IMG/VR virus record: IMGVR_UViG_3300042868_008486
Span: 1-64,000 of that record
Direction: 5' to 3' (one strand)
Length of the DNA: 64,000 nt
DNA from: a virus
Both the position numbers and the translations under genes were made by a program. Within the stretch, counting starts at the first letter, position 1; the number at the start of each line of letters is the position of its first letter. Shown piece by piece: positions 2,467 to 18,470 of this stretch. The notes beneath the pieces are model-generated. The model saw only the letters and a program-made list of their open reading frames with translations. It ran no database searches and was not told where the DNA came from.

Positions 2467-2488
2467 AAAAGTGGGTTTCCCCACTTTT
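2467..2488 (-). terminator. terminator of the 8285-2487 operon
   Basis: An AAAAGTGGG/CCCCACTTTT hairpin is followed on the minus strand by an eight-T run. It overlaps the RNA ligase stop codon. Confidence 0.75.
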
Positions 2489-3542: not shown

Positions 3543-3546
3543 ACAA

Positions 3547-3554
3547 CAAATATA
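3547..3554 (-). promoter_or_regulatory. TATATTTG box before the RNA ligase
   Basis: The coding strand reads TATATTTG-TTGT-ATG. The box lies just before the end of the upstream secreted-protein gene, giving the ligase its own possible promoter. Confidence 0.5.
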
Positions 3555-4496: not shown

Positions 4497-5527
4497 TTCT
4501 CATTTAATAAGAATTTATTAGAGATTGCTTTGAAACTGATTTTTCTGTCGTGTGAACGAATAACTAGCCCCTCTCTTTCGGTTTTAATATTTAAAACAGA
4601 CTTACCTTCAGCCATTAACAATAATTCATCAATTGTTTCAGGTAATGTAAAATCTAAGTCGAGAATTGGAACCGTTTTCACTTCCAAAATTTTAGTCAAT
4701 TCAAGCAAATCATCTAACGATAAATAGTCGTACTTGTCAATATCAAATCCGTTGAATATTCTAACTGTTTGACCAATACGTTGGTAAGGATTTCCTTGAA
4801 TTCCTTCACCGATGATTTCACCTTGTACCGCAAGGTTTTTCTCCAATCCAACCAACTTATCACGTAATCCTGATTCGATTGCGAATTTCCACATAGAATT
4901 GTTCACATCCTCCAATAAATCCAAGTTTCTTGAACACACTCCAAATACCCCGTCTTTAACGTAGTAAGTTACACTAGAACCATCTAATTTCTCAGTTACG
5001 TAGAATTTCGCCAATTTGTAGATAGGGTATTCTTTTGTCAAGTTTTGAACTCTTTCTTCATCAGTTTTCTTTAAAAATGAAGGAAAATTACCTTTAACTT
5101 GTCCTGCCAATTGTGCGGGAATTGGTGGTTCGTATTTCACAATGTTTAACATTTCTGTTACGTCAAGACCTTCAAACCAACCCATATCCATATTCGGTGT
5201 GTTTCTTTTGAAAACATCGTAAGCCTCTTTAAGGGGTAAGATTAACCCTTGAGAGATTTGACCTCGTAATCTGATTGTTTTCAAACGGAAACCTTCATTA
5301 CCGTCCGCCATTTTTTTGTATGAACTCTTACGTAAAAATTCAAACTCAGGTTCAATAGGTAAAAATGAGTCAACCTCACAGTAAACAATTAAGTCACCTA
5401 CTTTATGATTTACATCTTTAGCAACAACAACTTTCCATCCGTCAATTGTTGCCAATTCAATTTTGTCAGCCCCTTCGATTGGACTTAAATCAGAAATTTG
5501 TCTAATACTCGCTAATTTTCTTTCCAT
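4493..5527 (-). CDS. RNA ligase, DRB0094 (Rnl5) family
   Basis: 344 aa. The N-terminus (about 1-110) is the OB-fold-like module beginning MERKLASIRQISDLSPIEG, with GDLIVYCEVDSFLP. The ligase core follows, with motif I TEKLDGSSVTYY near residue 180 and EIIGEGIQGNPY downstream, and EGLVIRS plus KAISNKFLL near the end. This arrangement is typical of Deinococcus-type RNA ligases that seal nicked RNA. It overlaps genes on both sides, so it is translationally coupled. The second ligase of a different family nearby suggests different substrates. Confidence 0.9.
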   Translation of the reverse strand: MERKLASIRQISDLSPIEGADKIELATIDGWKVVVAKDVNHKVGDLIVYCEVDSFLPIEPEFEFLRKSSYKKMADGNEGFRLKTIRLRGQISQGLILPLKEAYDVFKRNTPNMDMGWFEGLDVTEMLNIVKYEPPIPAQLAGQVKGNFPSFLKKTDEERVQNLTKEYPIYKLAKFYVTEKLDGSSVTYYVKDGVFGVCSRNLDLLEDVNNSMWKFAIESGLRDKLVGLEKNLAVQGEIIGEGIQGNPYQRIGQTVRIFNGFDIDKYDYLSLDDLLELTKILEVKTVPILDLDFTLPETIDELLLMAEGKSVLNIKTEREGLVIRSHDRKISFKAISNKFLLNEK

Positions 5528-5687
5528 TTGTTCTTGTGTTAAATAATTTTATATATTTTATTCTCAATGTTTTGTATTGTCTTATCATAAACTGACTTAT
5601 ATTGTCAGGGTTTGATGAATGTAATTCAATCATATAATTGGTTGACCTTACCTCATCCAATAAATCGAGTAATTCATATTTTTCCAT
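5502..5687 (-). CDS. small hypothetical protein
   Basis: 61 aa from the ATG at 5687 (MEKYELLDLL). A longer in-frame reading to 5741 exists, but the ATG at 5687 overlaps the upstream stop region in the style of this operon. It is helical and charged with no recognised motif. It overlaps the start of the RNA ligase gene at 5527. Confidence 0.6.
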   Translation of the reverse strand: MEKYELLDLLDEVRSTNYMIELHSSNPDNISQFMIRQYKTLRIKYIKLFNTRTNGKKISEY

Positions 5688-6036
5688 CGTCAATTCTTTT
5701 AACCATTTCCGATTGTGTGTATACTTCCTCACCCGATTCAAATTTAATCAATAAATCTAAATTCACAACTTTATTATCCATATATTTTTCAGTGTAAGTG
5801 TAATTACAATTTGTTTGAATAACAATACCGTGGTTTTGAAATAATTTATCAATCCCTGACCGGTGTTTTAACGTGTCTTTATCAATGTTATAACTACCAT
5901 CCCAAATCAAGACTCTATCACCTACATCTTTAATTCTATCGTCTTTATGTTGTTTGATATACTCTTGTATTTCTTTTAACATATTAACCGATTCTAAGAA
6001 TAAATCATCTTGATTATTTTCGTCGTAAGTTTCCAT
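5674..6036 (-). CDS. hypothetical protein
   Basis: 120 aa, acidic N-terminus, then a short beta-rich part (GDRVLIWDGSYNIDKDTL) resembling phage proteins that check or display a value, but no family is recognised. It lies between the phosphoesterase and the small gene at 5502, overlapping the latter. Confidence 0.7.
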   Translation of the reverse strand: METYDENNQDDLFLESVNMLKEIQEYIKQHKDDRIKDVGDRVLIWDGSYNIDKDTLKHRSGIDKLFQNHGIVIQTNCNYTYTEKYMDNKVVNLDLLIKFESGEEVYTQSEMVKRIDDGKI

Positions 6037-6041
6037 AATAA

Positions 6042-6710
6042 TTAACCAATAACATTTAACATTTCATCAGTGTGGTGGTCCTTTTCAATCTCAGAATGAA
6101 TTGGTTGTCTATCTAACAATGGAACCAACTCTCCCATAAGATTGTATGGTCTAAACTCTAAATGACCATCAATACCAGCATCAATTCTTCTCCCTTTTCC
6201 TAATCTTCTATTGTTAGGTAAGTGACAGTGACCGTGTATGTGCATCGCACCTTTACGTAAGTTATTCCACGAGTCAATTGGGTAGTGCATCAATTGAATT
6301 TCTCTTTTCCCAATCTTCAATGTGTTGTAGTGAGAAACACTCAAAAACAATTCTTGAACGTTGTCTTTATTATTCTCAATGTGGTGGTCGTGATTCCCCA
6401 AGATTAAGTGTATGTTTTTACATACAACTCTATCTCTGAATTTTCGGATTGACTCGAACCCACCAAAAGACCAATCACCCAAGTGAATTAAGATATCGTC
6501 TTCTTTAACGTATTGGTTAATGTTATTAACTATTGTGTCATTCATTAAATCAAGATTACTGAAGTCACGAGTTTCTTTAATTGGAATTGAACCGTCAGGT
6601 TTTCTCCAACTTGTTGTACCACGACAAATGTTTGTGTGATTGTAGTGAGTATCTGATGTTACCCAAACATTTGGGTATTTTCCTTGTTTATTTGCGTTAA
6701 TTTTAATCAT
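6042..6710 (-). CDS. calcineurin-like metallophosphoesterase
   Basis: 222 aa. All metal-site blocks are present: SDTHYNHTNI near residue 19, HLGDWSFGG near 76, GNHDHH near 104, MHYPIDSW near 140 and HIHGHCHLP near 157. The family hydrolyses phosphomono- or diesters. Here it sits in an operon with RNA ligases and a cyclic-phosphate receiver, so RNA-end or 2',3'-cyclic phosphate processing is a reasonable guess. A second, different phosphoesterase is at 39758. Confidence 0.9.
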   Translation of the reverse strand: MIKINANKQGKYPNVWVTSDTHYNHTNICRGTTSWRKPDGSIPIKETRDFSNLDLMNDTIVNNINQYVKEDDILIHLGDWSFGGFESIRKFRDRVVCKNIHLILGNHDHHIENNKDNVQELFLSVSHYNTLKIGKREIQLMHYPIDSWNNLRKGAMHIHGHCHLPNNRRLGKGRRIDAGIDGHLEFRPYNLMGELVPLLDRQPIHSEIEKDHHTDEMLNVIG

Positions 6711-7227
6711 ATTGTAAATCTAGTAATTTTTCACCACTAAACCAAGATGGAACGTCTCTTTTTTTCCACGCCGCCAAATCTGATTTAGCTCCTTTATAAT
6801 ATTTTCGGTAAGATAATACTGCCGAGGTGATAGGATGACAATAACTTACCGTTTTAAACTCGTCTGGCATCGCCAATGGGGGACAAGTGAATTCTGTGTC
6901 AGGAATGTTTGGTCTGTTGAATAGACACCATTTAATGACCTCAACCGATTTATGAGTTTTACCATATCTAAATGTATATTCTTCACCCAACGCTAAACCT
7001 AATTCACACAAGTACAAATAGTTTGGTAATGTCTCACGAGCCCAAATCGCACAAGGGTGGTTCTTATGTGTCATCTTGTATGGGATTAGTTCTTTATCCA
7101 CATTACCAGTTAAATGTTGAACTGAACACAATAGTTGTGCAGTTTCCAATATCATTTTAACAACGTGTTTGTCTACGTGATATTGTGCATTTTTCTTAAC
7201 GTCGGTATCTAAAAAGAATATGTTCAT
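6703..7227 (-). CDS. conserved phage protein of unknown function
   Basis: 174 aa from the ATG at 7227 (MNIFFLDTDV). Conserved-looking blocks are YHVDKHVVKMILETAQLL, THKNHPCAIWARE, RYGKTHKS and SYRKYYKGAKSDLAAWKKR. I recognise this pattern from many tailed phages but not a proven activity. The His/Asp/Lys-rich N-terminus suggests an enzyme. It overlaps the phosphoesterase gene by 8 nt and lies in the RNA-processing operon. Confidence 0.8.
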   Translation of the reverse strand: MNIFFLDTDVKKNAQYHVDKHVVKMILETAQLLCSVQHLTGNVDKELIPYKMTHKNHPCAIWARETLPNYLYLCELGLALGEEYTFRYGKTHKSVEVIKWCLFNRPNIPDTEFTCPPLAMPDEFKTVSYCHPITSAVLSYRKYYKGAKSDLAAWKKRDVPSWFSGEKLLDLQYD

Positions 7228-7228
7228 A

Positions 7229-7687
7229 TTATACAGTATGTTCAATTTGTACTCTAACACAAGTTTGTGATTGTCCTTCATTCATCAAGAAGTTGTTACA
7301 ATACCCCATTATATTAGCGGACCCAATTGGGTTTGCTGAATGTACAACAATTTCAGGGAACTTAATAGGTTTTTGTTTTTTATCAAATCTTGACATATTG
7401 ATTCTATTCTCATTTAATCCGTAGAATTCTGATACCAACCATTTAATTGCGTCGTAACCTGTTTTTTCTTCGATGTTATCGTAATCTAATTTATAATTTT
7501 TAGATACGTTATTGAAGTATTCTTGCATCGCACTATCACCTAAGTCGTGGTCCAATGAAATTAATTTGATATTAGTTAAACCAACTTTGTTTACCAAATT
7601 AACAAACTCATAGAAGTTTCTTACTACTAACCAATCTTTATCGACAGGTGTTCTTACATCATCTAAATATATTTTTACTTTTTCCAT
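7229..7687 (-). CDS. cyclic-phosphate processing receiver (cREC) domain protein
   Basis: 152 aa from the ATG at 7687 (MEKVKIYLDDVRTP). The family marks are LDDVRTP near residue 7, ISLDHDLG near 41, TGYDAIKWLV near 77 and VVHSANPIGSANI near 117. cREC domains are receiver-fold proteins proposed to process cyclic phosphates on RNA ends, often beside RNA ligases, as here. A TATATTTG box precedes the gene with a 14-nt leader. Its C-terminus ends 2 nt before the next start. Confidence 0.85.
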   Translation of the reverse strand: MEKVKIYLDDVRTPVDKDWLVVRNFYEFVNLVNKVGLTNIKLISLDHDLGDSAMQEYFNNVSKNYKLDYDNIEEKTGYDAIKWLVSEFYGLNENRINMSRFDKKQKPIKFPEIVVHSANPIGSANIMGYCNNFLMNEGQSQTCVRVQIEHTV

Positions 7688-7710
7688 AATCTTTCTTTTA
7701 ACAAATATAA

Positions 7711-8058
7711 TCAATATCTATGAACGTACACTATCAATCCAAGTTTTTTTGATGTGTCTATCATATTTTTAGTCCCTTTACTCTCACCGTCCCAAAACGC
7801 AATTAACATATCACCATATTCGGCCATTTGTCTATTACGGATGTGACCGGCACCTTTACCGTGTTTATTCCAATCGGCAGGAAATACCTTTAAATCAAAA
7901 CCCTTTTCTTTGGAATATTGTTCACCCAATTTATCGGTTCCTCTAGCACCACCACTAACAATTTCAGGTGTGGTAAGTGTTGGTATAACACCGTCACATA
8001 TCTCACGTAGTAATTCATAATCGTTGAATTCTCTACCACCAGCAATAATGACTTTCAT
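7711..8058 (-). CDS. SLOG-family (YspA/DprA-like) nucleotide-binding protein
   Basis: 115 aa. IIAGGREFNDY at residues 4-14, IVSGGARGTDKLGEQY near 33-48 and HIRNRQMAEYGDMLIAFWDG near 72-91 are the nucleotide-binding loops of the SLOG (DUF2493/YspA) group. Relatives bind or sense nucleotide-derived ligands and are widespread in phages. The gene abuts its upstream neighbour by 1 nt. Confidence 0.85.
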   Translation of the reverse strand: MKVIIAGGREFNDYELLREICDGVIPTLTTPEIVSGGARGTDKLGEQYSKEKGFDLKVFPADWNKHGKGAGHIRNRQMAEYGDMLIAFWDGESKGTKNMIDTSKKLGLIVYVHRY

Positions 8059-8352: not shown

Positions 8353-8459
8353 TTATTAATACAGGATTCGAACCTGTGAGTCCCCGTGTATAGGTATCAT
8401 ACATACCACATTCCCGGACTTTATGTATGCTCAACCTTAAGCCACTCGGTCAATTAATT
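8353..8459 (-). tRNA. tRNA-like, type II, with an extra hairpin; anticodon not assigned
   Basis: The acceptor AATTAAT/ATTAATA, a D-arm ACC...GGT and a perfect T-arm ACAGG-TTCGAAT-CCTGT are present. Between the D- and T-arms are 56 nt, including an 8-bp hairpin CATACATA/TATGTATG with a 16-nt loop. That is too long for a normal anticodon arm plus variable arm. Either an insertion sits in the anticodon arm or the gene is degenerate. Confidence 0.5.
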
Positions 8460-8460
8460 A

Positions 8461-8670
8461 ACCACCCCTGAGATTACGGGGTGTAGATGTCCTCAGTTTT
8501 TCTTATACAAAACCCAACGCGTCTTACCGCTTAAAAATCAACCATTACGTCGGAGTGAGGATGGTGTTCCACACTATTAGCCCAACGACCCCCTTTACAA
8601 ATCCTAATGAGGTATCAGATATATCATTGTTTAAGTAACGATACCAAATCTAGTGAGTTTCTCGAACTCA
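8461..8670 (-). other. structured spacer without a recognisable gene
   Basis: Several short inverted repeats are visible: CTGAG/CTCAG around 8469-8497, GGTATC/GATACC around 8612-8646, and TGAGT/ACTCA around 8654-8670 with a 7-nt loop TCGAGAA resembling a shifted T-loop. No ORF of note and no intact tRNA. Confidence 0.4.
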
Positions 8671-8673
8671 TTG

Positions 8674-8748
8674 TGGAGACAGTGGGAATCGAACCCACCA
8701 CACGGTGATTGCAAATCATCATCGCCACGCCTTGGAACATTTGCCCCC
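8674..8748 (-). tRNA. tRNA-Ala(UGC)
   Basis: Acceptor GGGGGCA/TGTCTCC has a G3-U70 pair, the alanine identity element. Anticodon loop TTTGCAA gives UGC (one stem mismatch). T-arm GTGGG-TTCGATT-CCCAC. The D-arm is atypical. Confidence 0.75.
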
Positions 8749-8753
8749 AAATT

Positions 8754-8855
8754 TAGACAACAGGTAATACTCACATTTATTATTACCTAACTCAACGACC
8801 TCTGCAGTTGTGAATCTGTTTTAAAGGTTTTCCTCGGTGAAGAGTTTGTTGTCTA
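8754..8855 (-). ncRNA. tRNA-like structured element E1
   Basis: An 8-bp perfect terminal stem TAGACAAC/GTTGTCTA encloses an 8-bp hairpin AGGTAATA/TATTACCT in the T-arm position, and a CAAC/GTTG arm containing CTGCAG. It lacks a TTCGA T-loop. It shares AACTGCAG and GTTGAGTT with the element at 10192. Confidence 0.45.
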
Positions 8856-8860
8856 TTTTT

Positions 8861-9019
8861 TTATTTGAAAGACTTTGATTGGTCCTCCCTATTTAATTCT
8901 TTCTCAATGTAGATATTGACCATATGTATTAGTGTGTCAGAATCAATATCAATTGTTTGACTTTCCTTACTTTCTTTCAGAAACGGAAAGATATTTTTAA
9001 AATACTCCTCGAATTTCAT
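8861..9019 (-). CDS. small acidic protein
   Basis: 52 aa, MKFEEYFKNIFPFLKES to SKSFK. The reading frame is uninterrupted and of coding character (many Glu, Asp, Lys), ending right beside structured element E1. It directly follows the gene at 9024 in the same direction with a 4-nt gap. No function recognised. Confidence 0.6.
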   Translation of the reverse strand: MKFEEYFKNIFPFLKESKESQTIDIDSDTLIHMVNIYIEKELNREDQSKSFK

Positions 9020-9023
9020 TTTA

Positions 9024-9356
9024 TTATAACTTTATAAATGTTTCATTTTTGATTGATTTACTAATCCATCTTGCTAATTCAGAACCTCTTATTTCCGAAT
9101 TGAAAGAAGTTGTCCCAAGGTCTTCAGATAATGTTGTGACCACATCTGACTCCTTAACTTTCGCACCAACTTCTAATGTTGATACATTATGTGTGACCTT
9201 TACATCAACTGTTGAAATTGGAAACTCGTACATATCACCAAAAACCTCAATCTTGTAATACAAATTACCTGCAATATAGTGACTAAATTTAGCCATTGCT
9301 TTAGACTTCATTAAGTCTTTTTTAATTTCAGTTTCGTTTAACTCAATTGTAACCAT
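9024..9356 (-). CDS. hypothetical protein within the tRNA array
   Basis: 110 aa from the ATG at 9356 (MVTIELNETEIKK). An earlier in-frame ATG at 9386 would overlap the upstream gene by 44 nt. It is beta-rich after a helical start, with repeated Thr/Val/Glu and no known motif. It probably forms a small operon with 9343-9663 and 8861-9019. Confidence 0.65.
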   Translation of the reverse strand: MVTIELNETEIKKDLMKSKAMAKFSHYIAGNLYYKIEVFGDMYEFPISTVDVKVTHNVSTLEVGAKVKESDVVTTLSEDLGTTSFNSEIRGSELARWISKSIKNETFIKL

Positions 9357-9663
9357 TTTCCAATTTCCATTTATTATGTAATTCATTTATTGTGTGATAA
9401 GGACTACCTACACCTTCATAAATCTCATCAAAACCATTTTCTTTAGTAATAACAGATTCTTCAGCTTTAATTGCCCCCCTATATTTATCCCCGTAACTTC
9501 CTTGAACTGTTTTTGTTGCCGGGTCAATATCACCCCAAGATGCTCTCCAACTTCTTGGTTCAATATATTCTACGAAATATTGTTTACCTGTTTCAGGAAA
9601 TACAACAATTTCTTTTCCTGTTTCGTCTCGATTTACTAAGAAATCTCTTTTTACATCTTCCAT
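9343..9663 (-). CDS. hypothetical protein within the tRNA array
   Basis: 106 aa beginning MEDVKRDFLVNRDETGK. EPRSWRASWGDIDPATKTV in the middle suggests a compact domain; I do not recognise the family. First of three small genes placed between tRNA groups, immediately downstream of tRNA-Gly. Confidence 0.7.
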   Translation of the reverse strand: MEDVKRDFLVNRDETGKEIVVFPETGKQYFVEYIEPRSWRASWGDIDPATKTVQGSYGDKYRGAIKAEESVITKENGFDEIYEGVGSPYHTINELHNKWKLENGYN

Positions 9664-9692
9664 AACTGACTGTTATACTGTTTATTTTATTG

Positions 9693-9765
9693 AGCGGGTG
9701 GGGGGAATCGAACCCTCGTCCTTAGATTGGAAGTCTAATATAATAAGCCACTATACGACACCCGC
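9693..9765 (-). tRNA. tRNA-Gly(UCC)
   Basis: Acceptor GCGGGTG/CACCCGC; anticodon arm TTAGA-CTTCCAA-TCTAA; T-loop TTCGATT. Confidence 0.9.
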
Positions 9766-9851
9766 AATTTGGGTAGAATCAGACGCGTTCTGTCTACCGA
9801 GACCTCGACGTTGTACTATGTTTCAAGTCAGAGCGTACCGAGACACTATTG

Positions 9852-9931
9852 TGAACCTGGAGGGAGTCGAACCCTCAATCCTAAAAATCGCGGCTTAAAC
9901 ACGACGCGTATACCAATTTCGCCACAGGTCC
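9852..9931 (-). tRNA. tRNA-Leu(UAA)
   Basis: Acceptor GGACCTG/CAGGTTC; anticodon arm TCGTG-TTTAAGC-CGCGA; longer variable region; T-arm GAGGG-TTCGACT-CCCTC. Confidence 0.9.
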
Positions 9932-9937
9932 TTTTTG

Positions 9938-10010
9938 TACCCCTACAGGGATTCTAACCCCGATTAAACCCTTAGAAGGGGTTGGTCCTATACAGTTGAA
10001 CGATAGGGGC
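9938..10010 (-). tRNA. tRNA-Arg(UCU) with a variant T-loop
   Basis: Acceptor GCCCCTA/TAGGGGT; anticodon arm AACCC-CTTCTAA-GGGTT. The T-loop reads TTAGAAT, so the near-universal C56 is A. Confidence 0.85.
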
Positions 10011-10019
10011 GAATTATTG

Positions 10020-10091
10020 CGGACTATGTAGGATTCGAACCTACGACCTATCCGTTAACAGCGGAGTGCTCTACCACTGAGCTAATAGTCC
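10020..10091 (-). tRNA. tRNA-Asn(GUU)
   Basis: Acceptor GGACTAT/ATAGTCC; loop CTGTTAA; T-arm GTAGG-TTCGAAT-CCTAC; standard D-arm TAGCTCAGTGGTAGAGC. Confidence 0.9.
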
Positions 10092-10103
10092 ATTTAATTG
10101 TTG

Positions 10104-10176
10104 AGGTCCCTAACGGATTCGAACCGTTATCCCTGGGTTACAAAGCCAGAATAATAAGCCATTATACTAAGAGACC
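10104..10176 (-). tRNA. tRNA-Thr(UGU)
   Basis: Acceptor GGTCTCT/AGGGACC; anticodon loop TTTGTAA, with a C-C mismatch closing the stem CTGG/CCAG; T-arm AACGG-TTCGAAT-CCGTT. Confidence 0.75.
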
Positions 10177-10191
10177 AATTAAGAGTGTTAT

Positions 10192-10305
10192 TAATTCGTT
10201 TTACCTAAGACCGCGAATCCACGTAAAACTCAACTTCACCAATATTTTTACTGCAGTTCCAATATTGTCACATTGCTACTATATTGAACTAATAACTACG
10301 AATTA
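10192..10305 (-). ncRNA. tRNA-like structured element E2
   Basis: Terminal stem TAATTCG/CGAATTA; a 7-bp hairpin GTTTTAC/GTAAAAC with an 18-nt loop in the T-arm position; a central 6-bp hairpin AATATT/AATATT; and AGTTCAATATAGTAGC near the 5' end, resembling a D-arm. No standard T-loop. Confidence 0.45.
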
Positions 10306-10319
10306 CCCATCATAATTTC

Positions 10320-10390
10320 ACCATCGTTAGGGCTCGAACCTAAAGCTTCCGACTCCACGTCAGATGTGTTGACCAATTTACACCACTAGT
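10320..10390 (-). tRNA. tRNA, atypical anticodon loop (reads UGG)
   Basis: Acceptor ACTAGTG pairs with CGATGGT through wobbles and one mismatch. T-arm TTAGG-TTCGAGC-CCTAA is normal. Anticodon arm TCTGA-CGTGGAG-TCGGA puts UGG at 34-36 but G at position 33 instead of U. Confidence 0.55.
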
Positions 10391-10425
10391 TACTTAGATT
10401 GACAAATAATTGTTTTTCTCTTTGC

Positions 10426-10497
10426 TGAATAATAAGGGTTCGAACCTTAATCTGAAATCCGTATTACCATCATCCGTGCTCCATTACACTATATCCA
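10426..10497 (-). tRNA. tRNA-like gene, probably degenerate
   Basis: T-arm TAAGG-TTCGAAC-CCTTA and the D-arm AGTGTAATGGAGCAC are clear, but the 5' acceptor does not pair with TTATTCA. The best anticodon arm (loop GATGGTA) has a mismatch and no U33. Identity not assigned. Confidence 0.45.
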
Positions 10498-10500
10498 ATC

Positions 10501-10518
10501 GACAGTTTCGAACCTGTC
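10501..10518 (-). other. orphan T-arm
   Basis: GACAG-GTTCGAAA-CTGTC forms a T-arm-like hairpin with an 8-nt loop, preceded by the hairpin TAAAGG/CCTTTA, but no D-arm or acceptor partner can be found. Likely a tRNA fragment. Confidence 0.4.
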
Positions 10519-10547
10519 ATATAAAGGGTTATAACTCCTTTATTTTG

Positions 10548-10619
10548 CGGTCTATGCGAGAATCGAACTCGCGGCACATCCGTGACAGGGATGTATGTTA
10601 GCCACTACACCAATAGACC
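10548..10619 (-). tRNA. tRNA-Asp(GUC)
   Basis: Acceptor GGTCTAT/ATAGACC; anticodon arm CATCC-CTGTCAC-GGATG; T-arm GCGAG-TTCGATT-CTCGC; discriminator G. Confidence 0.95.
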
Positions 10620-10626
10620 ATAATAA

Positions 10627-10808
10627 AAACAAGTTTTTCGTGACCTTTACACATCATAACCAATTTTACTCGGTGATTACATTTTCGTCATTGGGGTAGC
10701 TAATCCCCGACTTATAGTAATTCTACCCTCAATACTTTACTATCGCGAATCAAGTACCATCTTGGGATTTATAGACAGTGAGGGTTTACTCACCGTCTTC
10801 ACTTGTTT
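10627..10808 (-). ncRNA. long structured element E3
   Basis: AAACAAGT at 10627 pairs with ACTTGTTT at 10801. Within are GGGG/CCCC around 10698, ATAGTAA/TTACTAT, and GTGAG/CTCAC. At 182 nt it may hold two elements. No tRNA or ORF is seen. Confidence 0.35.
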
Positions 10809-10810
10809 AG

Positions 10811-10882
10811 TAGCGGGTACAGGATTCGAACCTGTGTCTTTGGGTTATGAGCCCAACGGGGTGACCACTCCCCCAACCCGCG
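10811..10882 (-). tRNA. initiator tRNA-fMet(CAU)
   Basis: Acceptor CGCGGGT/ACCCGCT leaves position 1-72 unpaired (C opposite U), and the anticodon stem TTGGG-CTCATAA-CCCAA carries the three G-C pairs diagnostic of initiators. T-arm ACAGG-TTCGAAT-CCTGT. Confidence 0.9.
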
Positions 10883-10887
10883 ATATG

Positions 10888-10963
10888 AATTACCCATAGG
10901 ACTCGAACCTACAACCCTTCGCCCTTTTGAGCGATGTGCAAACCAATTTACACCATAAGTAAT
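10888..10963 (-). tRNA. tRNA with atypical anticodon arm
   Basis: Acceptor ATTACTT/GGGTAAT and T-arm GTAGG-TTCGAGT-CCTAT are good. The D-arm GGTGTAAATTGG matches that of the tRNA at 10320, suggesting a paralogue. The anticodon stem TCGC/GCGA leaves TCAAAAGG in the loop, so the anticodon is unclear. Confidence 0.55.
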
Positions 10964-10967
10964 TAAT

Positions 10968-11029
10968 CAAGAACAATAAACAGAAATTAGTGTCGACAAA
11001 TTTCCTTAGGCAATATGTTTATTTTCTTG
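10968..11029 (-). ncRNA. structured element E4
   Basis: CAAGAA-C-AATAAAC pairs with GTTTATT-TTCTTG (13 bp, one bulge). Inside is the hairpin GAAATT/AATTTC. 62 nt, lying between tRNAs. Confidence 0.4.
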
Positions 11030-11059
11030 TTAGGGTTCGGTTAATTACTCCGACCTTTG

Positions 11060-11133
11060 TATCGCGTACGGGATTCGAACCCGTGATTTTCACCTTGAAA
11101 GGGTGACGACTTAAACCTCTCGTCTAACGCGAC
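11060..11133 (-). tRNA. tRNA-Glu(UUC)
   Basis: Acceptor GTCGCGT/ACGCGAT; anticodon arm TCACC-CTTTCAA-GGTGA; T-arm ACGGG-TTCGAAT-CCCGT. A promoter and a boxA-like site lie immediately upstream. Confidence 0.95.
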
Positions 11134-11150
11134 ATTTTGTTTTTTCTATT

Positions 11151-11167
11151 CCGATATGTCAAAGACC
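11151..11167 (-). promoter_or_regulatory. boxA-like element
   Basis: The minus strand reads GGTCTTTGACATATCGG, about 20 nt downstream of a promoter -7 box and about 17 nt upstream of tRNA-Glu. Confidence 0.6.
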
Positions 11168-11187
11168 TTTTGTTTTCTTTTGTCTTA

Positions 11188-11218
11188 CAAATCTAATCAT
11201 TTTCTTTTGTTCTCACAA
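11188..11218 (-). promoter_or_regulatory. tRNA promoter TTG-N20-TAGATTTG
   Basis: TTG at 11216-11218, 20-nt spacer, TAGATTTG at 11188-11195. It is followed by TAAGACAAAA and the boxA-like site, the same order as at 11528. Confidence 0.75.
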
Positions 11219-11243
11219 GCTCTTTGTGATATTTTTTTTTCTG

Positions 11244-11317
11244 TAGTTCAGAAGGGATTTGAACCCCCAACCTTGACGATATAAGCGTCCTGCTCTCACC
11301 TGTTGAGCTACTGAACC
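11244..11317 (-). tRNA. tRNA-Ile(UAU)
   Basis: Acceptor GGTTCAG/CTGAACT; anticodon arm GACG-CTTATAT-CGTC; T-arm GGGGG-TTCAAAT-CCCTT (wobble); standard D-arm TAGCTCAACAGGTGAGAGC. Confidence 0.8.
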
Positions 11318-11365
11318 AAATACGTTTCACGTTTTAGGCCAATTAAACTAACCGCCCGTCGTCAC

Positions 11366-11389
11366 GGACAGTACCGGAGTCGAACCGAT
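11366..11389 (-). other. orphan T-arm plus 3' acceptor strand
   Basis: ATCGG-TTCGACT-CCGGT followed by ACTGTCC, but no GGACAGT-like 5' strand upstream. Downstream, GGTTAGTTTAATTGG resembles a D-arm, so a rearranged or decayed tRNA is possible. Confidence 0.35.
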
Positions 11390-11402
11390 ATGTGATAACG
11401 AA

Positions 11403-11478
11403 GTACCCTTGGTGGGATTCGAACCCACAAAAAAATAGTTTCTAAAACTATCGTGTATACCTTTCCACCACAAGGGTA
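11403..11478 (-). tRNA. tRNA-Leu(UAG)
   Basis: Acceptor TACCCTT/AAGGGTA; anticodon arm ATAGT-TTTAGAA-ACTAT; T-arm GTGGG-TTCGAAT-CCCAC; first tRNA after the promoter at 11528. Confidence 0.9.
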
Positions 11479-11490
11479 TCTACTTCTATT

Positions 11491-11507
11491 CCAATATGTC
11501 AATGAAC
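11491..11507 (-). promoter_or_regulatory. boxA-like element
   Basis: GTTCATTGACATATTGG, the same 17-mer as at 14818, 20 nt below the promoter -7 box. Confidence 0.65.
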
Positions 11508-11527
11508 TCTTGTTCTGTTTTGTCTTA

Positions 11528-11558
11528 CAAATCTAATACTTTTATTTTGATTTGCCAA
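11528..11558 (-). promoter_or_regulatory. tRNA promoter TTG-N20-TAGATTTG
   Basis: TTTGG with TTG at 11556-11558, 20-nt spacer, TAGATTTG at 11528-11535. It drives tRNA-Leu(UAG) and the tRNAs below it, directly after a terminator. Confidence 0.75.
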
Positions 11559-11576
11559 ACTTAGGTCACAAAAAAA

Positions 11577-11600
11577 ACCCCTCTCTTTTGGAGAAGGGTT
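11577..11600 (-). terminator. terminator below the YqeY gene
   Basis: ACCCCTCTC-TTTT-GGAGAAGGGT with an eight-T run on the minus strand. It separates YqeY transcription from the tRNA promoter at 11558. Confidence 0.75.
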
Positions 11601-11624
11601 TCATTTAAATTTTATCTTAATGAA

Positions 11625-11813
11625 TTAACACATCTTCTCCGATACACAAGGATTGTCTCCCTCCGTTCTCGCATTTAAAAGTATGTTATTCAAATTTTGC
11701 ATTGTGTTGTCTTTTTTATTAAATATATTGTACTTTTTGAAAAGTTCAATAGTTAGTGAAAAATTTTTAACAAATTGGTTTAGATTTTTAATTTTCAAGT
11801 ACTTCTTTAACAA
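11625..11813 (-). CDS. small hypothetical protein (start uncertain)
   Basis: 62 aa, overlapping the end of the YqeY gene by 26 nt. An internal ATG at 11702 would give only 25 aa (MQNLNNILLN). Lys/Asn-rich N-terminal half, cysteine-containing end (NPCVSEKMC). Coding status is uncertain. Confidence 0.35.
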   Translation of the reverse strand: MLKKYLKIKNLNQFVKNFSLTIELFKKYNIFNKKDNTMQNLNNILLNARTEGDNPCVSEKMC

Positions 11814-12186
11814 TTTTTGAAACTAAAGTATTGTCGGCTTTACCCTTATATACTTTATTGAAAGCACCCATCATTTTACCAACATTATCAATACCATCTT
11901 TTTTAAATGTTCTGATGATTGAACGGATACTAAATTCATCCATTAACTTTGGTAAATATGGTTTAATGTATTCTAATTCTTTTAAAGATTCATCAGTGTT
12001 TGTCTGTGTTAATGATTTTTCCATTTTCTTTAAAATAGAAAGAACTACCTCATCTGTCACACTAACACCTCTACCTTCTTCATTTTGGATTTCACCTTTT
12101 AGTACACCTAAAAAGTTTTTCTTTTCCATTTCTTTGTTTTTAAATGCCGTCATAAATTCGACATTAATTTGTTCTCTTAGTGACAT
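11788..12186 (-). CDS. GatB/YqeY-domain protein
   Basis: 132 aa, close to YqeY (about 148 aa). The all-helical family pattern is seen in EIQNEEGRGVSVTDE, YIKPYLPKLM and VGKMMGAFNKVYKGKAD. YqeY domains are related to the tail of GatB, the amidotransferase subunit that binds tRNA during Glu-tRNA to Gln-tRNA conversion. Placement inside a tRNA array supports a tRNA-linked role, but none is proven for stand-alone YqeY. Confidence 0.9.
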   Translation of the reverse strand: MSLREQINVEFMTAFKNKEMEKKNFLGVLKGEIQNEEGRGVSVTDEVVLSILKKMEKSLTQTNTDESLKELEYIKPYLPKLMDEFSIRSIIRTFKKDGIDNVGKMMGAFNKVYKGKADNTLVSKIVKEVLEN

Positions 12187-12203
12187 AGTTATTTGTTTTT
12201 AAG

Positions 12204-12284
12204 TGGGTGCGGAGGGATTCGAACCCCCACGCGATTAAGACCTGAGCTACAATCAGGCGAGCCAGCCAATTGCTCAACACACCC
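12204..12284 (-). tRNA. tRNA reading GUA (Tyr-like), type II
   Basis: Acceptor GGGTGTG/CGCACCC; D-stem GAGC/GCTC; anticodon arm CCTGA-TTGTAGC-TCAGG; long variable region; T-arm GGGGG-TTCGAAT-CCCTC. Position 37 is G rather than A, so a second tyrosine tRNA is only tentative. Confidence 0.7.
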
Positions 12285-12293
12285 ATAAAGAAA

Positions 12294-12357
12294 ATATCGT
12301 AGATTGTCCTTCACAATTTAACGGCGGGTTTGAACTTAATCAACTCTCCTACGATAT
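12294..12357 (-). ncRNA. tRNA-sized structured element E5
   Basis: 9-bp terminal stem ATATCGTAG/CTACGATAT and a 5-bp hairpin ATTGT/ACAAT in the T-arm position with loop GAAGG. 64 nt, between two tRNAs. Confidence 0.45.
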
Positions 12358-12362
12358 CTTGG

Positions 12363-12445
<83 letters not shown>

Positions 12446-12471
12446 ATTATATGACAATTAATGTCATTTCG

Positions 12472-12543
12472 CGCACCACCAAGGACTCGAACCCTGACCA
12501 AATGGGTTGGAACCATTTATGCTAGCCATTACACCAATGATGC
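12472..12543 (-). tRNA. tRNA-Trp(CCA)
   Basis: Acceptor GCATCAT/GTGGTGC; anticodon arm AATGG-TTCCAAC-CCATT; T-arm CAGGG-TTCGAGT-CCTTG. Confidence 0.9.
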
Positions 12544-12570
12544 GAATAATGAAATTTTTATATTTCATTG

Positions 12571-12644
12571 AGGACAGAGAGAGGTTCGAACTCCCGAATA
12601 ATGGGTTTGCAGCCCACCCCTTTAGACCACTCAGGCATCTGTCC
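12571..12644 (-). tRNA. tRNA-Cys(GCA)
   Basis: Acceptor GGACAGA/TCTGTCC; anticodon loop CTGCAAA on TGGG/CCCA; T-arm GGGAG-TTCGAAC-CTCTC. Confidence 0.9.
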
Positions 12645-12650
12645 AATTTA

Positions 12651-12750
12651 ATATTAAGTCGCGAGTAATCCATCTGTCGCTTATTACTAGAATCTTGTGG
12701 CTTACTTACTATAGTTCATACCGTTACCACTAGGAAACCCAACTTAATAT
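12651..12750 (-). ncRNA. tRNA-like structured element E6
   Basis: 9-bp terminal stem ATATTAAGT/ACTTAATAT; GCGA/TCGC hairpin with a 12-nt loop next to the 3' strand; GGGTTTCCTAGTGGTAACGG near the 5' end resembles a D-arm. 100 nt. Confidence 0.45.
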
Positions 12751-12767
12751 CTTCGTACTAATTATTT

Positions 12768-12837
12768 TAGAGATTGGTTCCCGAAGGATTAAACCATCAC
12801 TTGTACTTCGTGTCAGGAGGTAAACCCCATATCTCTA
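12768..12837 (-). ncRNA. tRNA-sized structured element E7
   Basis: 7-bp acceptor-like stem TAGAGAT/ATCTCTA, GGGG/CC(T)C arm, and a 5-bp T-arm-position hairpin TGGTT/AACCA with a 12-nt loop TAATCCTTCGGG. 70 nt, the size of a tRNA but without TTCGA. Confidence 0.5.
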
Positions 12838-12840
12838 ATG

Positions 12841-12912
12841 TAGCCCCTGTAGGACTCGAACCTACACTATCTTGTATGTAAAACAAGTACTTCACCTTTA
12901 AGCTAAAGGGCT
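12841..12912 (-). tRNA. tRNA-Val(UAC)
   Basis: Acceptor AGCCCTT/AGGGGCT; anticodon arm CTTGT-TTTACAT-ACAAG; T-arm GTAGG-TTCGAGT-CCTAC. Confidence 0.9.
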
Positions 12913-12919
12913 AATTATT

Positions 12920-12996
12920 GTGACCCCGGTGAGAATCGAACTCACGACCCGTACATTAAAAGTGTACTGCTCTAAACCAACTGAGCTACGAAGTCA
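12920..12996 (-). tRNA. tRNA-Lys(UUU)
   Basis: Acceptor TGACTTC/GGGGTCA; anticodon arm GTACA-CTTTTAA-TGTAC; T-arm GTGAG-TTCGATT-CTCAC. Confidence 0.95.
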
Positions 12997-13118
12997 AATT
13001 TGGAAGGTCACCACAAACACCTTCCACGGTGAGTATTTTAATGTCGTTTTGTCTAATTACACCTAAGTGTCATAGTCGCAGGTCTCACTTCACGACAAAC
13101 CCGATTGGTATTAAGTAG

Positions 13119-13192
13119 TCGGTACGGTAGGATTTGAACCTACGACCTTTCACGTATCAGGCGAATGCTCTTACCAGCTGAGCTACGTACCG
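13119..13192 (-). tRNA. tRNA-Ile(GAU)
   Basis: Acceptor CGGTACG/CGTACCG; anticodon arm TTCGC-CTGATAC-GTGAA; T-arm GTAGG-TTCAAAT-CCTAC. The 120 nt before it hold the hairpin GGAAGGT/ACCTTCC but no gene. Confidence 0.9.
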
Positions 13193-13202
13193 TTATTTTT
13201 GG

Positions 13203-13274
13203 TCGGGGTAGCAGGTGTCGAACCTGCCGCCTCTTGGTCCCAAACCAAGCGTCTCACCCCAAGACTATACCCCG
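13203..13274 (-). tRNA. tRNA-Pro(UGG)
   Basis: Acceptor CGGGGTA/TACCCCG; anticodon arm CTTGG-TTTGGGA-CCAAG; T-arm GCAGG-TTCGACA-CCTGC. Confidence 0.95.
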
Positions 13275-13287
13275 TTTGTTTGTTTAA

Positions 13288-13318
13288 CAAAGATAAGTAA
13301 TCATTTTCATTCTCACAA
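13288..13318 (-). promoter_or_regulatory. promoter TTG-N20-TATCTTTG before tRNA-Pro
   Basis: TTG at 13316-13318, TATCTTTG at 13288-13295, spacer exactly 20. No boxA-like site follows; the tRNA starts about 14 nt downstream. Confidence 0.75.
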
Positions 13319-13340
13319 TACCTTAGTTAATTTTTTTTTG

Positions 13341-13412
13341 TATCGTTATCAGGACTCGAACCTGAACCCACACCTTATGAGAGTGTTGTGACTACCTTTA
13401 CACTATAACGAC
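13341..13412 (-). tRNA. tRNA-Met(CAU), elongator type
   Basis: Acceptor GTCGTTA/TAACGAT is fully paired; anticodon arm ACACT-CTCATAA-GGTGT lacks the initiator G-C triplet. A lysidine-type tRNA-Ile(CAU) cannot be excluded. Confidence 0.85.
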
Positions 13413-13417
13413 GTTTG

Positions 13418-13505
13418 CGGAAGATGTAGGGTTCGAACCTACGCGTCATATTTCAGACCTACTTGTTTAGCAAACAAGCCTCTTTACCAATTTGAGTAAT
13501 CTTCC
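13418..13505 (-). tRNA. tRNA-Ser(GCU)
   Basis: Acceptor GGAAGAT/ATCTTCC; anticodon arm CTTGT-TTGCTAA-ACAAG; long variable arm; T-loop TTCGAAC. Confidence 0.9.
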
Positions 13506-13545
13506 AAAATACACCGACCTAGCTCGGTATCACACATCGGATACG

Positions 13546-13617
13546 TAGTCCCCCAAGGACTCGAACCTTGACATTATCGTCCGTAGCGATAGGTGCTATC
13601 CGTTACACCAAGGAACC
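13546..13617 (-). tRNA. tRNA-Arg(ACG)
   Basis: Acceptor GGTTCCT/GGGGACT; anticodon arm TATCG-CTACGGA-CGATA; A34 would need deamination to inosine by host TadA. Confidence 0.9.
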
Positions 13618-13619
13618 AA

Positions 13620-13733
13620 ATAATAAGGTTGGAGACTTATAATCGACCATTATAAGGTTGGAGCCTTATAATCACCCATTATTAGGTCTGAACCTAATAT
13701 TCACCCATTATTAGGTTATAACCTTATATTGAG
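13620..13733 (-). repeat. four tandem hairpins, about 29-nt period
   Basis: Four successive imperfect inverted repeats of related sequence (ATTATAAGGTTGG-type, then ATTATTAGGTC and ATTATTAGGTTATAACC) are joined by CACCC-type linkers. Each can form a stem of 6-10 bp. They lie between tRNA-Arg and the end of the gene at 13711. Confidence 0.7.
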
Positions 13734-13908
13734 TTTTTCTGTAGTGTTTCCAAGTTTTATACATTCTAACTTGATAACTCATTTTGTTTCCGTAGAAACT
13801 TATTCCTTCATCCCAATAAATTGGGTAAAAGTCATTAATCAATCTATTTCGGTATTCTCTACCATTTTGTGCTTTGTTCAGTTTTGCTCTGTTGATGTTT
13901 GTACTCAT
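13711..13908 (-). CDS. small basic hypothetical protein
   Basis: 65 aa from the ATG at 13908 (MSTNINRAKLNKAQNGREY). Rich in Arg, Lys and Tyr (RMYKTWKHYRKTQYKVIT at the C-terminus), so nucleic-acid binding is possible. It sits among tRNA genes. A longer reading to 13938 exists. Confidence 0.6.
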   Translation of the reverse strand: MSTNINRAKLNKAQNGREYRNRLINDFYPIYWDEGISFYGNKMSYQVRMYKTWKHYRKTQYKVIT

Positions 13909-13934
13909 AGTTGTGGTTTTTAACCTACAACTTG

Positions 13935-14150
13935 TCAAATTTTTTCTTCATTTTGTTTAATGTAATCTAATGCAATGTGTATCAAACCGTTGAGATATTG
14001 CCATTTCGGACTTGCGTTCGGATAATGACCGAATATCTCAACTAATTTTTCTTCTTGCCATTTCCTTTCACTAATGATTGGAGATAACCATCGACCATTT
14101 TCTAAGTCGGCATTTACAAATGTTTTTTCTGTCTCTGCGATTTCTAAGTT
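13935..14150 (-). pseudogene. ORF without a start codon (gene remnant?)
   Basis: An open frame of about 71 codons ends in TGA at 13935 and encodes coding-like text (NADLENGRWLSPIISERKWQ, then IFGHYPNASPKWQYLNGLI). A TAA lies at 14151-14153, and no ATG, GTG or TTG occurs before the middle of the frame. Either the 5' end was lost when tRNAs were inserted, or an unusual start is used. Confidence 0.45.
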
Positions 14151-14163
14151 TTAAAAATTAATT

Positions 14164-14239
14164 GGGAGTATAGTGAGATTCGAACTCACCCTATTAGCAC
14201 CACAAACTAACGTGCTCGACCACTGACACTATATACTCC
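14164..14239 (-). tRNA. tRNA-His(GUG)
   Basis: Acceptor GGAGTAT/ATACTCC; anticodon arm TTAGT-TTGTGGT-GCTAA; C73 present as in histidine tRNAs; T-arm GTGAG-TTCGAAT-CTCAC. The D-arm is unusual. Confidence 0.85.
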
Positions 14240-14242
14240 ATA

Positions 14243-14298
14243 AAAACCCCACTTCATCGGATTAATGGACCGACTGCCATATCGGGAGTGGGGGTTTT
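14243..14298 (-). ncRNA. structured element E9
   Basis: AAAACCCCACT pairs with AGTGGGGGTTTT (11 bp, one bulge) around a 33-nt interior containing CCGA/TCGG. 56 nt between tRNA-His and tRNA-Phe. It could alternatively act as a terminator. Confidence 0.45.
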
Positions 14299-14317
14299 CC
14301 CATCAGTAGGGACTCCG

Positions 14318-14390
14318 TGGGACAGGAGGGAATCGAACCCCCATTGCTTGTTCTTCAGACAAGTGCCTTGACCAACTTGGCAACTGACCC
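14318..14390 (-). tRNA. tRNA-Phe(GAA)
   Basis: Acceptor GGGTCAG/CTGTCCC (one mismatch); anticodon arm CTTGT-CTGAAGA-ACAAG; T-loop TTCGATT. Confidence 0.9.
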
Positions 14391-14399
14391 AAATATTTT

Positions 14400-14490
14400 C
14401 ATCAAATCACCGATTACCACAATTACGGTGAGACCTTCGGGAACTGCCGTCCCGTGTTTTCTTTTTACCCGTGGATTAAACTATTTGATG
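14400..14490 (-). ncRNA. cloverleaf-like element E10 with expanded T-loop
   Basis: 8-bp terminal stem CATCAAAT/ATTTGATG; a textbook 5-bp/7-nt anticodon-type arm CGGGA-CGGCAGT-TCCCG; T-arm-position stem CACCG/CGGTG with a 13-nt loop. The 5' part AGTTTAATCC resembles a D-loop. Position 33 is G and there is no TTCGA. Confidence 0.55.
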
Positions 14491-14496
14491 GGGTAG

Positions 14497-16826: not shown

Positions 16827-18470
16827 TTAAGATAATGCTTTAGTTTTTAATGTATTAAAGACACCATCCATATTTCCACTAATTTTACTTAACGCTGGAC
16901 ATATTGCCGCTGCTAATCCTCGTTCTATTGATTGTGCAAAGTCTGAACTATCTAAACCTTGAACAATAGAATTTCTTAATATATCAAAGAAACCACCCGT
17001 CAATCCTGCATTATCTTTAACTTTATCTAACGCCTCTTCAGCGATTGATTTTGCTAATAATGGTGTTAAGTAATCACACGTTAATATTTTACCTGAAGTA
17101 TAATCACCAAGTGGTATATTTCCAATTGCTTTCACAATTGTACCGGCAACCCAACTATCTGTATTAATTCCCAATTTATTTAATAAGGTCTCAGCGATTT
17201 TTTCTTTAAAGTAACCTAAAATTCCTTCAGTTCCTAAACCAAACATACCTTTTAATGAATCCCATAATCCTTCAGATATTAATTTTGGTGATAAACCTAA
17301 ATTAACTAAATCAAATGATTCGTTAAATAATTCAGATACTGACTCTTTTTTCACTTTTGAAGACTCGGTAATCATTTTAAAACGTGCATTAATTATTTTA
17401 CTTTCTGTGACTAATGTTTTTTTTTTACTCTCAGATAACATTGATAATTTACCTTTGATGATTGATTTAAGAACATCGTCTTTAGACTCATTCATTCGTT
17501 GTTCGAATTTGTATCTTAAACCCCAACCACCATTGTTACGTTTCAAAAAGTTAATTTCATCTTCAATACCCATAATACCCCCTAAAAAGTTCATACCTTG
17601 GGTAGCACATTTATAAGCATAATCCCTAACAGTTTCAACTTCAGTAGCTCCTGCGGTTACAGGTACATTTTTCGATGCGTTTTTATATAATATTTTGATA
17701 GCTTTTCTACATTCATTTCTTGATATTTTTTGACCCTCTAAAGTTGCTGCTAATTCTTTTGCACTTGTTGCGGTCGCCCCTTTAACTGCTTGAGAACTTT
17801 TTTTCCAAACGACTAAATTTTTTGATGATTTTCCATTTTTTTGTAACACCTTATTAAATTCGTCAACAATATTTTCACCACCATTCTTAGTTAATATTGT
17901 TAACGCGTTACCTGTTAATGTGTATTCAGGTGTTCCATAAGGGGCTTCTGTAAATGTATATCCTATTTTATCAAAAAAGTTTTTAACATTTGGCATTTGG
18001 TCAATCCAATTATTTGTAATACCAACTGATTGGTAAATAAAATGTACCCCTTTTTCTGGAAACGTTTGAGAATTGATGGAGTTTAAGTCGACCGCTTTAT
18101 AAGTTCCTTTGTCTATTTCACCACGACCACCAGGAATATCTGATAATCTTTTATAACCTGTATTTTGTGCAAGTAACGCCTCTACAACCTTTTTTTGGTC
18201 AGGACCTAATGGTAAATCAATTTTACCTTTAACCGCTTCACAAGCACTATATGTACCTTCATTATTTAGTTTACCATTAGTACCATAAGCTTTATAAGTA
18301 AAATCATCATATAAAAACACAATACCTTTACCCGGTACACTTTGTCTTAACGCAGGTTTTTTAGTGTTTTCATCAGTAACCAATTGATAACCCTTCCAAC
18401 CACAATCACGTAATAATAACGTTAATGTTTCATTTTGGGTAGTTTCTTGTTCTTTTATAACTCGTTTCAT
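16827..18470 (-). CDS. large putative virion protein with processing sites
   Basis: 547 aa. It begins MKRVIKEQ, like the end of the capsid-targeting leaders in this genome. Residues about 20-240 contain two repeats of the pattern GKGIVFLYDD/GVHFIYQ, and about 330-395 is a linker rich in ESK with several I/L-x-E sites. LISEGLWDSLKGMFG at about 397-411 starts a helical, glycine-rich C-terminal domain. The same EGLWDS text occurs in the 494-aa protein at 19598. I infer prohead-protease cleavage after E400 and a membrane-active or injected C-terminal part. Confidence 0.8.
   Translation of the reverse strand: MKRVIKEQETTQNETLTLLLRDCGWKGYQLVTDENTKKPALRQSVPGKGIVFLYDDFTYKAYGTNGKLNNEGTYSACEAVKGKIDLPLGPDQKKVVEALLAQNTGYKRLSDIPGGRGEIDKGTYKAVDLNSINSQTFPEKGVHFIYQSVGITNNWIDQMPNVKNFFDKIGYTFTEAPYGTPEYTLTGNALTILTKNGGENIVDEFNKVLQKNGKSSKNLVVWKKSSQAVKGATATSAKELAATLEGQKISRNECRKAIKILYKNASKNVPVTAGATEVETVRDYAYKCATQGMNFLGGIMGIEDEINFLKRNNGGWGLRYKFEQRMNESKDDVLKSIIKGKLSMLSESKKKTLVTESKIINARFKMITESSKVKKESVSELFNESFDLVNLGLSPKLISEGLWDSLKGMFGLGTEGILGYFKEKIAETLLNKLGINTDSWVAGTIVKAIGNIPLGDYTSGKILTCDYLTPLLAKSIAEEALDKVKDNAGLTGGFFDILRNSIVQGLDSSDFAQSIERGLAAAICPALSKISGNMDGVFNTLKTKALS

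Follow-up and report, generated by a model that had tools for sequence, protein, structure and literature searches.

We analysed a window of 64,000 nucleotides (nt), positions 1 to 64,000 of the 186.8-kb virus record IMGVR_UViG_3300042868_008486 of IMG/VR, in which an array of transfer RNA (tRNA) genes lies on the minus strand at ~8.3–14.8 kb. The array comprises 24 tRNA genes detected by ARAGORN together with a few degenerate tRNAs, and it also holds at least ten conserved units that are not canonical tRNAs. The units and unit candidates, with the other viral loci in which they recur (L numbers), are as follows.

8754–8855, minus strand: family J unit, with a terminal stem, an inner stem and a T-arm-like hairpin whose loop is close to AWAATGTGRA.
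9766–9850, minus strand: family A unit, two hairpins, with a GNRA loop in most members and the palindromic loop ACGCGT.
10180–10310, minus strand: family C unit, with an 11-bp stem P1, a P4/P2 arm with the palindromic loop ACTGCAGT, and a T-arm-like hairpin P3 with an 18-nt loop.
10620–10809, minus strand: probable family G unit, 190 nt, with a 22-base conserved block in L076, L226, L227, L228 and L229.
10966–11058, minus strand: family D unit, a hairpin and a long stem P2 bearing the palindromic loop TGTCGACA.
11318–11402, minus strand: circularly permuted tRNA-like unit, in the order 3′ half, linker, 5′ half.
12292–12359, minus strand: unit 12294, a 64-nt closed hairpin-like element, identical over 64 nt in L197.
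12645–12753, minus strand: family H unit, with the palindromic loop ACTATAGT and relatives in L197 and L229.
12760–12839, minus strand: unit 12768, unconfirmed, closed by an 8-bp stem.
12996–13117, minus strand: family E unit, found in L197, L085, L179, L186 and L200 and in part in L041, L036 and L126.
13506–13544, minus strand: family F unit, 39 nt, sharing 38 of 39 bases with L197 and found in part in L007 and L172.
14239–14317, minus strand: family B unit, a pseudoknot and one hairpin, the pseudoknot starting 1–2 nt after the 3′ end of tRNA-Phe.
14391–14495, minus strand: family I unit, a tRNA-like layout with a covarying terminal stem, a T-arm-like hairpin with a 13-nt loop, and a pseudoknot.

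For comparison, 25 related viral loci were collected by way of a YqeY-like protein encoded within the array, and further relatives were obtained family by family through core-motif searches of viral contigs. These searches yielded 79 stretches for family A, 35 for family B, 18 for family C (some by chance), 11 for family I (a few by chance) and 6 for family G; most of the 95 stretches matching the family D motif were chance matches, told apart by the absence of tRNAs. Model searches of the window and its relatives against Rfam 15 returned no family matching any unit. The annotated phage genomes gave no match for families A and B, nor for family C, and the family A pattern produced eight scattered matches over many taxa in bacterial genomes, which we took as chance.

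Nine of the spacer intervals had been described in an earlier note as tRNA-like elements closed by terminal stems, and folding reproduced these stems. Within 13 tRNA-to-tRNA slots, we counted ten stems of at least 8 Watson–Crick pairs spanning 40–185 nt, compared with 2.1 ± 1.5 in 200 dinucleotide shuffles (highest shuffled count, 7), and three stems of at least 10 pairs, compared with 0.18. Over the whole region, including long AT-rich stretches, stems of at least 7 pairs were near chance (27 versus 21.3 ± 4.7), and because this excess is small, stem length alone would not settle whether the units are real. Such 7-pair stems are thus frequent by chance in DNA of this kind, and degenerate tRNAs are present in the array, both of which would fit a reading of the units as decayed tRNAs or chance folds of AT-rich spacers. 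That reading is hardly tenable, however, in view of compensatory changes, of units common to unrelated phages, and of near-identity between units of the window and L197 (one base different in family E, no variation at all in unit 12294), where the longest alignments between the two are 77–82% identical.

It is refuted for eight of the nine intervals, all of which have counterparts in further uncultured phages; compensatory changes were found in six (those starting at 8754, 10192, 10968, 12651, 14243 and 14400). The ninth, 12768–12837, is without a relative and may still be a decayed tRNA or chance fold; its sole BLAST match, which sits in sequence reading like a dihydrofolate-reductase gene, was rejected, and the unit is absent from L197 along with tRNA-Val. 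Two of the proposed intervals were real units with boundaries drawn too tightly, 14243–14298 extending to 14239–14317 with its pseudoknot and 10968–11029 to 10966–11058, and four conserved units had been missed (9766–9850, 11318–11402, 12996–13117 and 13506–13544). For family G (10627), full-length similarity is weak, and the assignment depends on one short conserved block.

Covariation was counted on alignments of families A, B, C and D. In family C, a 4-bp P4 leads into hairpin P2 with its palindromic loop, and P3 sits directly on P1; among 13 distinct members, 93.1% of cells pair, a figure that fell to at most 49% when the partner was slid by 1–3 columns, and 19 pairs and 47 cells changed on both sides, compared with 9.2 and 15.3 in shuffles. 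On the covariance-model alignment, 21 pairs change on both sides; the model matched the window at 110 bits, recovered the known members and by itself found a new one, L128 (85 bits). All 13 members carry TTGCAA or CTGCAG as the loop palindrome. The invariance of the 16-nt loop block is partly by construction, because its letters served as the search pattern. At L128 4017–4137, this otherwise invariant T-arm-like loop is replaced, and the new loop holds the palindrome GCTAGC.

Family D likewise has 13 distinct members, with 96.5% of cells paired, 43 cells changed on both sides versus 14.9 in shuffles, and a covariance-model match of 95.6 bits; in L128, nearly all letters of the P2 stem differ and pairing is kept. 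The four-base core of TGNNNNCA is TCGA, GTAC, GATC or ACGT, palindromic in 13/13 distinct sequences, compared with 6/64 of the unrelated sequences that the search pattern also picked up. Three more matches, grouped with the true ones by a loose context rule, are non-palindromic and lie in contigs without tRNAs. Of 100 arrays and related loci searched with the covariance model of family A, 65 contain this family; 96.1% of the family's cells are paired, with changes on both sides exceeding those in shuffles as in families C and D, and its loop reads AGGCCT in 19 and ACGCGT in 13 of 38 full-length distinct sequences. In family H, which like family J is represented by a few relatives, the palindrome changes between ACTATAGT and ATCTAGAT among the window, L197 and L229, and the stems appear as GTGG/CCAC or GTAG/CTAC and as GCGA/TCGC or TGAC/GTCA.

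The units are almost certainly conserved RNA genes, and in four families (A, C, D and H) the apical loop changes letters yet stays palindromic, a self-complementary loop kept through sequence change being what is expected of a kissing-loop homodimer. Bases opposite each other in such a loop lie too near to form pairs in a single molecule, so that pairing between two copies is the simplest explanation, and some units probably homodimerise. The palindromes differ between families, except for CTGCAG, which occurs in families C and J of this phage, and each RNA would therefore mainly recognise itself; in family J, CTGCAG is not kept in the relatives. In human immunodeficiency virus 1 (HIV-1), the dimerisation initiation site has a self-complementary apical loop of ~6 nt with purines beside it, and the palindromic units described here share such a purine-flanked loop of ~6 nt. 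The HIV-1 site forms a palindromic kissing-loop dimer (reviewed in PMC7357161). What sets the present case apart is that the loops belong to small RNAs that are independent of one another, and that within a single phage most families have a palindrome of their own.

Families B and I carry pseudoknots. In family B, both the pseudoknot (GGAGT/ACTCC or GAGGT/ACCTC) and the hairpin (GTCGG/CCGAC or GTCAG/CTGAC) covary, and two-sided changes outnumber those in shuffles, as in families A, C and D. Family I relatives lie between tRNAs in L219, L238, L240, L241, L242, L244 and L245, and covariation was read by hand in six members: P1 is CATCAAAT/ATTTGATG, TTAGTTAAA/TTTAACTAA or TTGTAA/TTACAA, P3 is CACCG/CGGTG, GAACG/CGTTC or AATCG/CGGTT around the loop TAATTGTGGTAAT, and the pseudoknot strand, which precedes P1, covaries as TACCC/GGGTA, GGGT/ACCC or CCTTC/GAAGG. 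All helices also pair in three relatives whose two segments share one base. The invariance of the 13-nt loop is partly by construction, since its letters, too, were used for the search. Family J relatives in L053, L057, L076, L226 and L229 lie between tRNA-Met and tRNA-Glu, with different letters and paired stems.

The placement of some units bears on the main rival explanation, namely that they are cis-acting elements processing a long pre-tRNA, either as spacers or as new, theta-like self-cleaving ribozymes that free tRNA ends. Theta ribozymes are small RNAs resembling the hepatitis delta virus (HDV) ribozyme that touch phage tRNA genes, and RNA ligase genes are common in phages that carry them (PMC10879173). 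This explanation is strongest for families A, B and I: family A ends 1–4 nt before a tRNA in every member for which a downstream tRNA was found, and the pseudoknots of families B and I start right at the 3′ end of a tRNA, which is also the cleavage site of theta ribozymes (PMC10879173). We nonetheless consider it unlikely. When family B was examined as an HDV-like or theta ribozyme, it lacked P3, and the candidate for the catalytic C, an invariant base at the start of J4/2 in such ribozymes (column 64 here), is C in 8/13 and U in 5/13 members; the HDV families in Rfam gave no match in the window or its relatives, no HDV fold was seen in the families tested, and most families have the wrong tRNA-adjacent side or shape. 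The base preceding family I varies, and cis action leaves the kept palindromes unexplained.

The resemblance of some units to tRNAs is a matter of layout. In families C and I, a T-arm-like hairpin sits directly on the terminal stem, and the suggestion of a hairpin with an enlarged loop at the T-arm place was borne out, with covariation in relatives, for 10192 (7 bp, 18-nt loop; family C), 14400 (5 bp, 13-nt loop; family I) and 8754 (~8 bp, 11-nt loop; family J). The hallmarks of tRNA, a TTCRA T-loop and a 7-nt anticodon loop with U33, are lacking in these three families. The 5-bp/7-nt arm at 14400, which had been taken for an anticodon-type arm, is not an anticodon arm, because the relatives have loops of 5–7 nt without U33. 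With E values of up to 10 admitted, the tRNA covariance model RF00005 still matched none of the nine intervals, its only matches in the window being canonical and a few degenerate tRNAs, and the units have no T- or D-loop motifs, so that the idea of divergent tRNAs fails; the description as structured RNAs without TTCGA loops, some of them tRNA-shaped and outside the families of Rfam 15, holds. The palindromic loops, which tell most about the units, had escaped the earlier note.

Less likely again than cis processing is that the units are tRNA mimics, decoys that lure host defence nucleases which cut tRNAs, or sponges that soak up factors binding to tRNA. The tRNA-like layout of families C and I and the RNA-repair genes adjoining the array would suit such a role, and tRNAs encoded by phages are known to work against defences that target tRNAs (PMC10264068), but the units have no anticodon loops, most families (A, B and D) are not tRNA-shaped, and the conserved letters sit in loops foreign to tRNA. 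Nuclease decoys and processing signals, both raised in the earlier note, are possible functions that gained no specific support.

Most units sit 1–15 nt from the adjacent tRNAs, with tRNA partners that vary between phages, and where the gap is wider, another unit or an unrecognised tRNA intervenes. In L197, three stretches are cleanly missing, leaving tRNA-to-tRNA spacers of 4, 4 and 8 nt compared with 190, 176 and 105 nt in the window; family G is among the clean absences, between Asp and Met. The units are conserved, their structures covary, most occupy slots beside tRNA genes, and several have been gained or lost singly.

We favour, with a probability of roughly 0.6, the reading that the spacers are separate small non-coding RNA (ncRNA) genes, cassettes in a tRNA operon whose products are stable, trans-acting and partly homodimeric RNAs released by tRNA processing. 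The units would be transcribed together with the tRNAs, cut free as the flanking tRNAs mature through ribonuclease P and 3′ trimming, and persist as stable RNAs of 40–190 nt. A kissing-loop contact would join two copies of one RNA in families A, C, D and H, and the dimers might have a structural or scaffold-like role in trans during infection, such as is suspected of the phage RNAs GOLLD and ROOL, and not a role as tRNAs. Several points weigh against this reading. Transcription of the units is deduced from sequence, the palindromes were first spotted by eye, and a palindrome could bind a dimeric protein instead. Furthermore, 6 of the 38 family A members have neither of the two palindromes, families B, E, I and J have no clearly kept palindrome, and the functions of GOLLD and ROOL, the models for a scaffold role, are themselves unknown.

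The unit at 11318–11402 stands apart. A T-arm and the acceptor 3′ strand come first, followed by a linker, the acceptor 5′ strand and a D-arm, and the two acceptor strands pair; when the spacer was doubled, ARAGORN called a tRNA, which it did in 0/1900 doubled shuffles. The L197 copy has a compensatory change at the first acceptor pair (C-G versus G-C), a different and longer linker, and one T-stem pair lost. Joining the ends directly would give a stem of ~7 bp and a loop of ~8 nt without a clear U33. Among the relatives, ARAGORN found no further permuted tRNA beyond the L197 copy; a junction match in L187, with a 73-nt intron and a low score, was not counted. Circularly permuted tRNA genes in algae and archaea have the 3′ half before the 5′ half and a linker joining the acceptor stem, as here, and to our knowledge none has been described in a phage. 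Two ligase genes lie near the array.

2487–3542, minus strand: RNA ligase of the T4 Rnl1 type (Pfam RNA_lig_T4_1, E 3.6e-15).
4493–5527, minus strand: second RNA ligase, with a PHA02142 oligonucleotide/oligosaccharide-binding (OB)-fold domain (Pfam PF21189, PF09414).

They belong to an RNA-repair neighbourhood at 2487–7714, beside the tRNA array, which also encodes a metallophosphoesterase and a protein with a cyclic-phosphate-processing receiver (cREC) domain. The T4 Rnl1-type ligase is a possible partner of the permuted tRNA, and in this the system would differ from those of algae and archaea. That the array encodes a set of nearly orthogonal, self-recognising RNAs, several of them homodimeric through palindromic kissing loops, together with a permuted tRNA matured by the phage RNA ligase, is a tentative proposal to which we give somewhat less than an even chance.

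Other features of the array and its relatives were also noted. Degenerate or unusual tRNAs with T-loops and low scores lie at 8353–8459, 8671–8748, 10319–10390, 10425–10497 and 10889–10962, the last of which is kept in many relatives (82–91% identity) and may therefore be functional. The non-coding stretch 8461–8669 is ~90% identical in L197, and 13618–13735 holds four tandem hairpin repeats of ~29 nt, whose stem letters differ with pairing kept. The spacer 13275–13339 resembles a Bacteroidota-type promoter (TANNTTTG), not an RNA unit, and has similar counterparts in relatives, which would suggest a Bacteroidota host. A second tRNA cluster at ~118–122 kb of G000 (L001) contains Leu/Ser-like tRNAs of 113–123 nt with acceptor, D and T arms alike and very different middles, and the same region holds a repeated element with the mutually complementary loops TTGAGAA and TTCTCAA.

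Stable non-tRNA RNAs inside a phage tRNA cluster have a precedent in RNAs C and D (species 1 and 2) of phage T4, likened here by description alone; T4 has two of them, compared with at least ten units in this array. GOLLD and ROOL are phage ncRNAs of unknown function that occur near tRNA islands and form homo-oligomers held partly by kissing loops (PMC12286853). The units described here share the position near phage tRNAs and, as their palindromes suggest, may share a homo-oligomeric state, but they measure 40–190 nt compared with ~400–900 nt for GOLLD (RF02032) and ROOL, and many families occur in one array. The Rfam models of GOLLD and ROOL gave no match in the window. The one GOLLD RNA found (L007, 13876–14286, 321 bits) is separate from the units: within this 20-kb locus, it lies ~6.4 kb downstream of a family D unit, and the locus also carries a transfer-messenger RNA (17287–17677).

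A phage tRNA array is usually taken for a list of tRNAs separated by filler; in the present one, the filler contains no fewer than ten units that are conserved. Natural examples of RNA homodimers are few, and a palindrome that persists while its letters change is a signature of them not often seen in sequence. It yields direct, testable predictions, and connects the small units to the puzzle that GOLLD and ROOL pose by their place beside phage tRNA islands.

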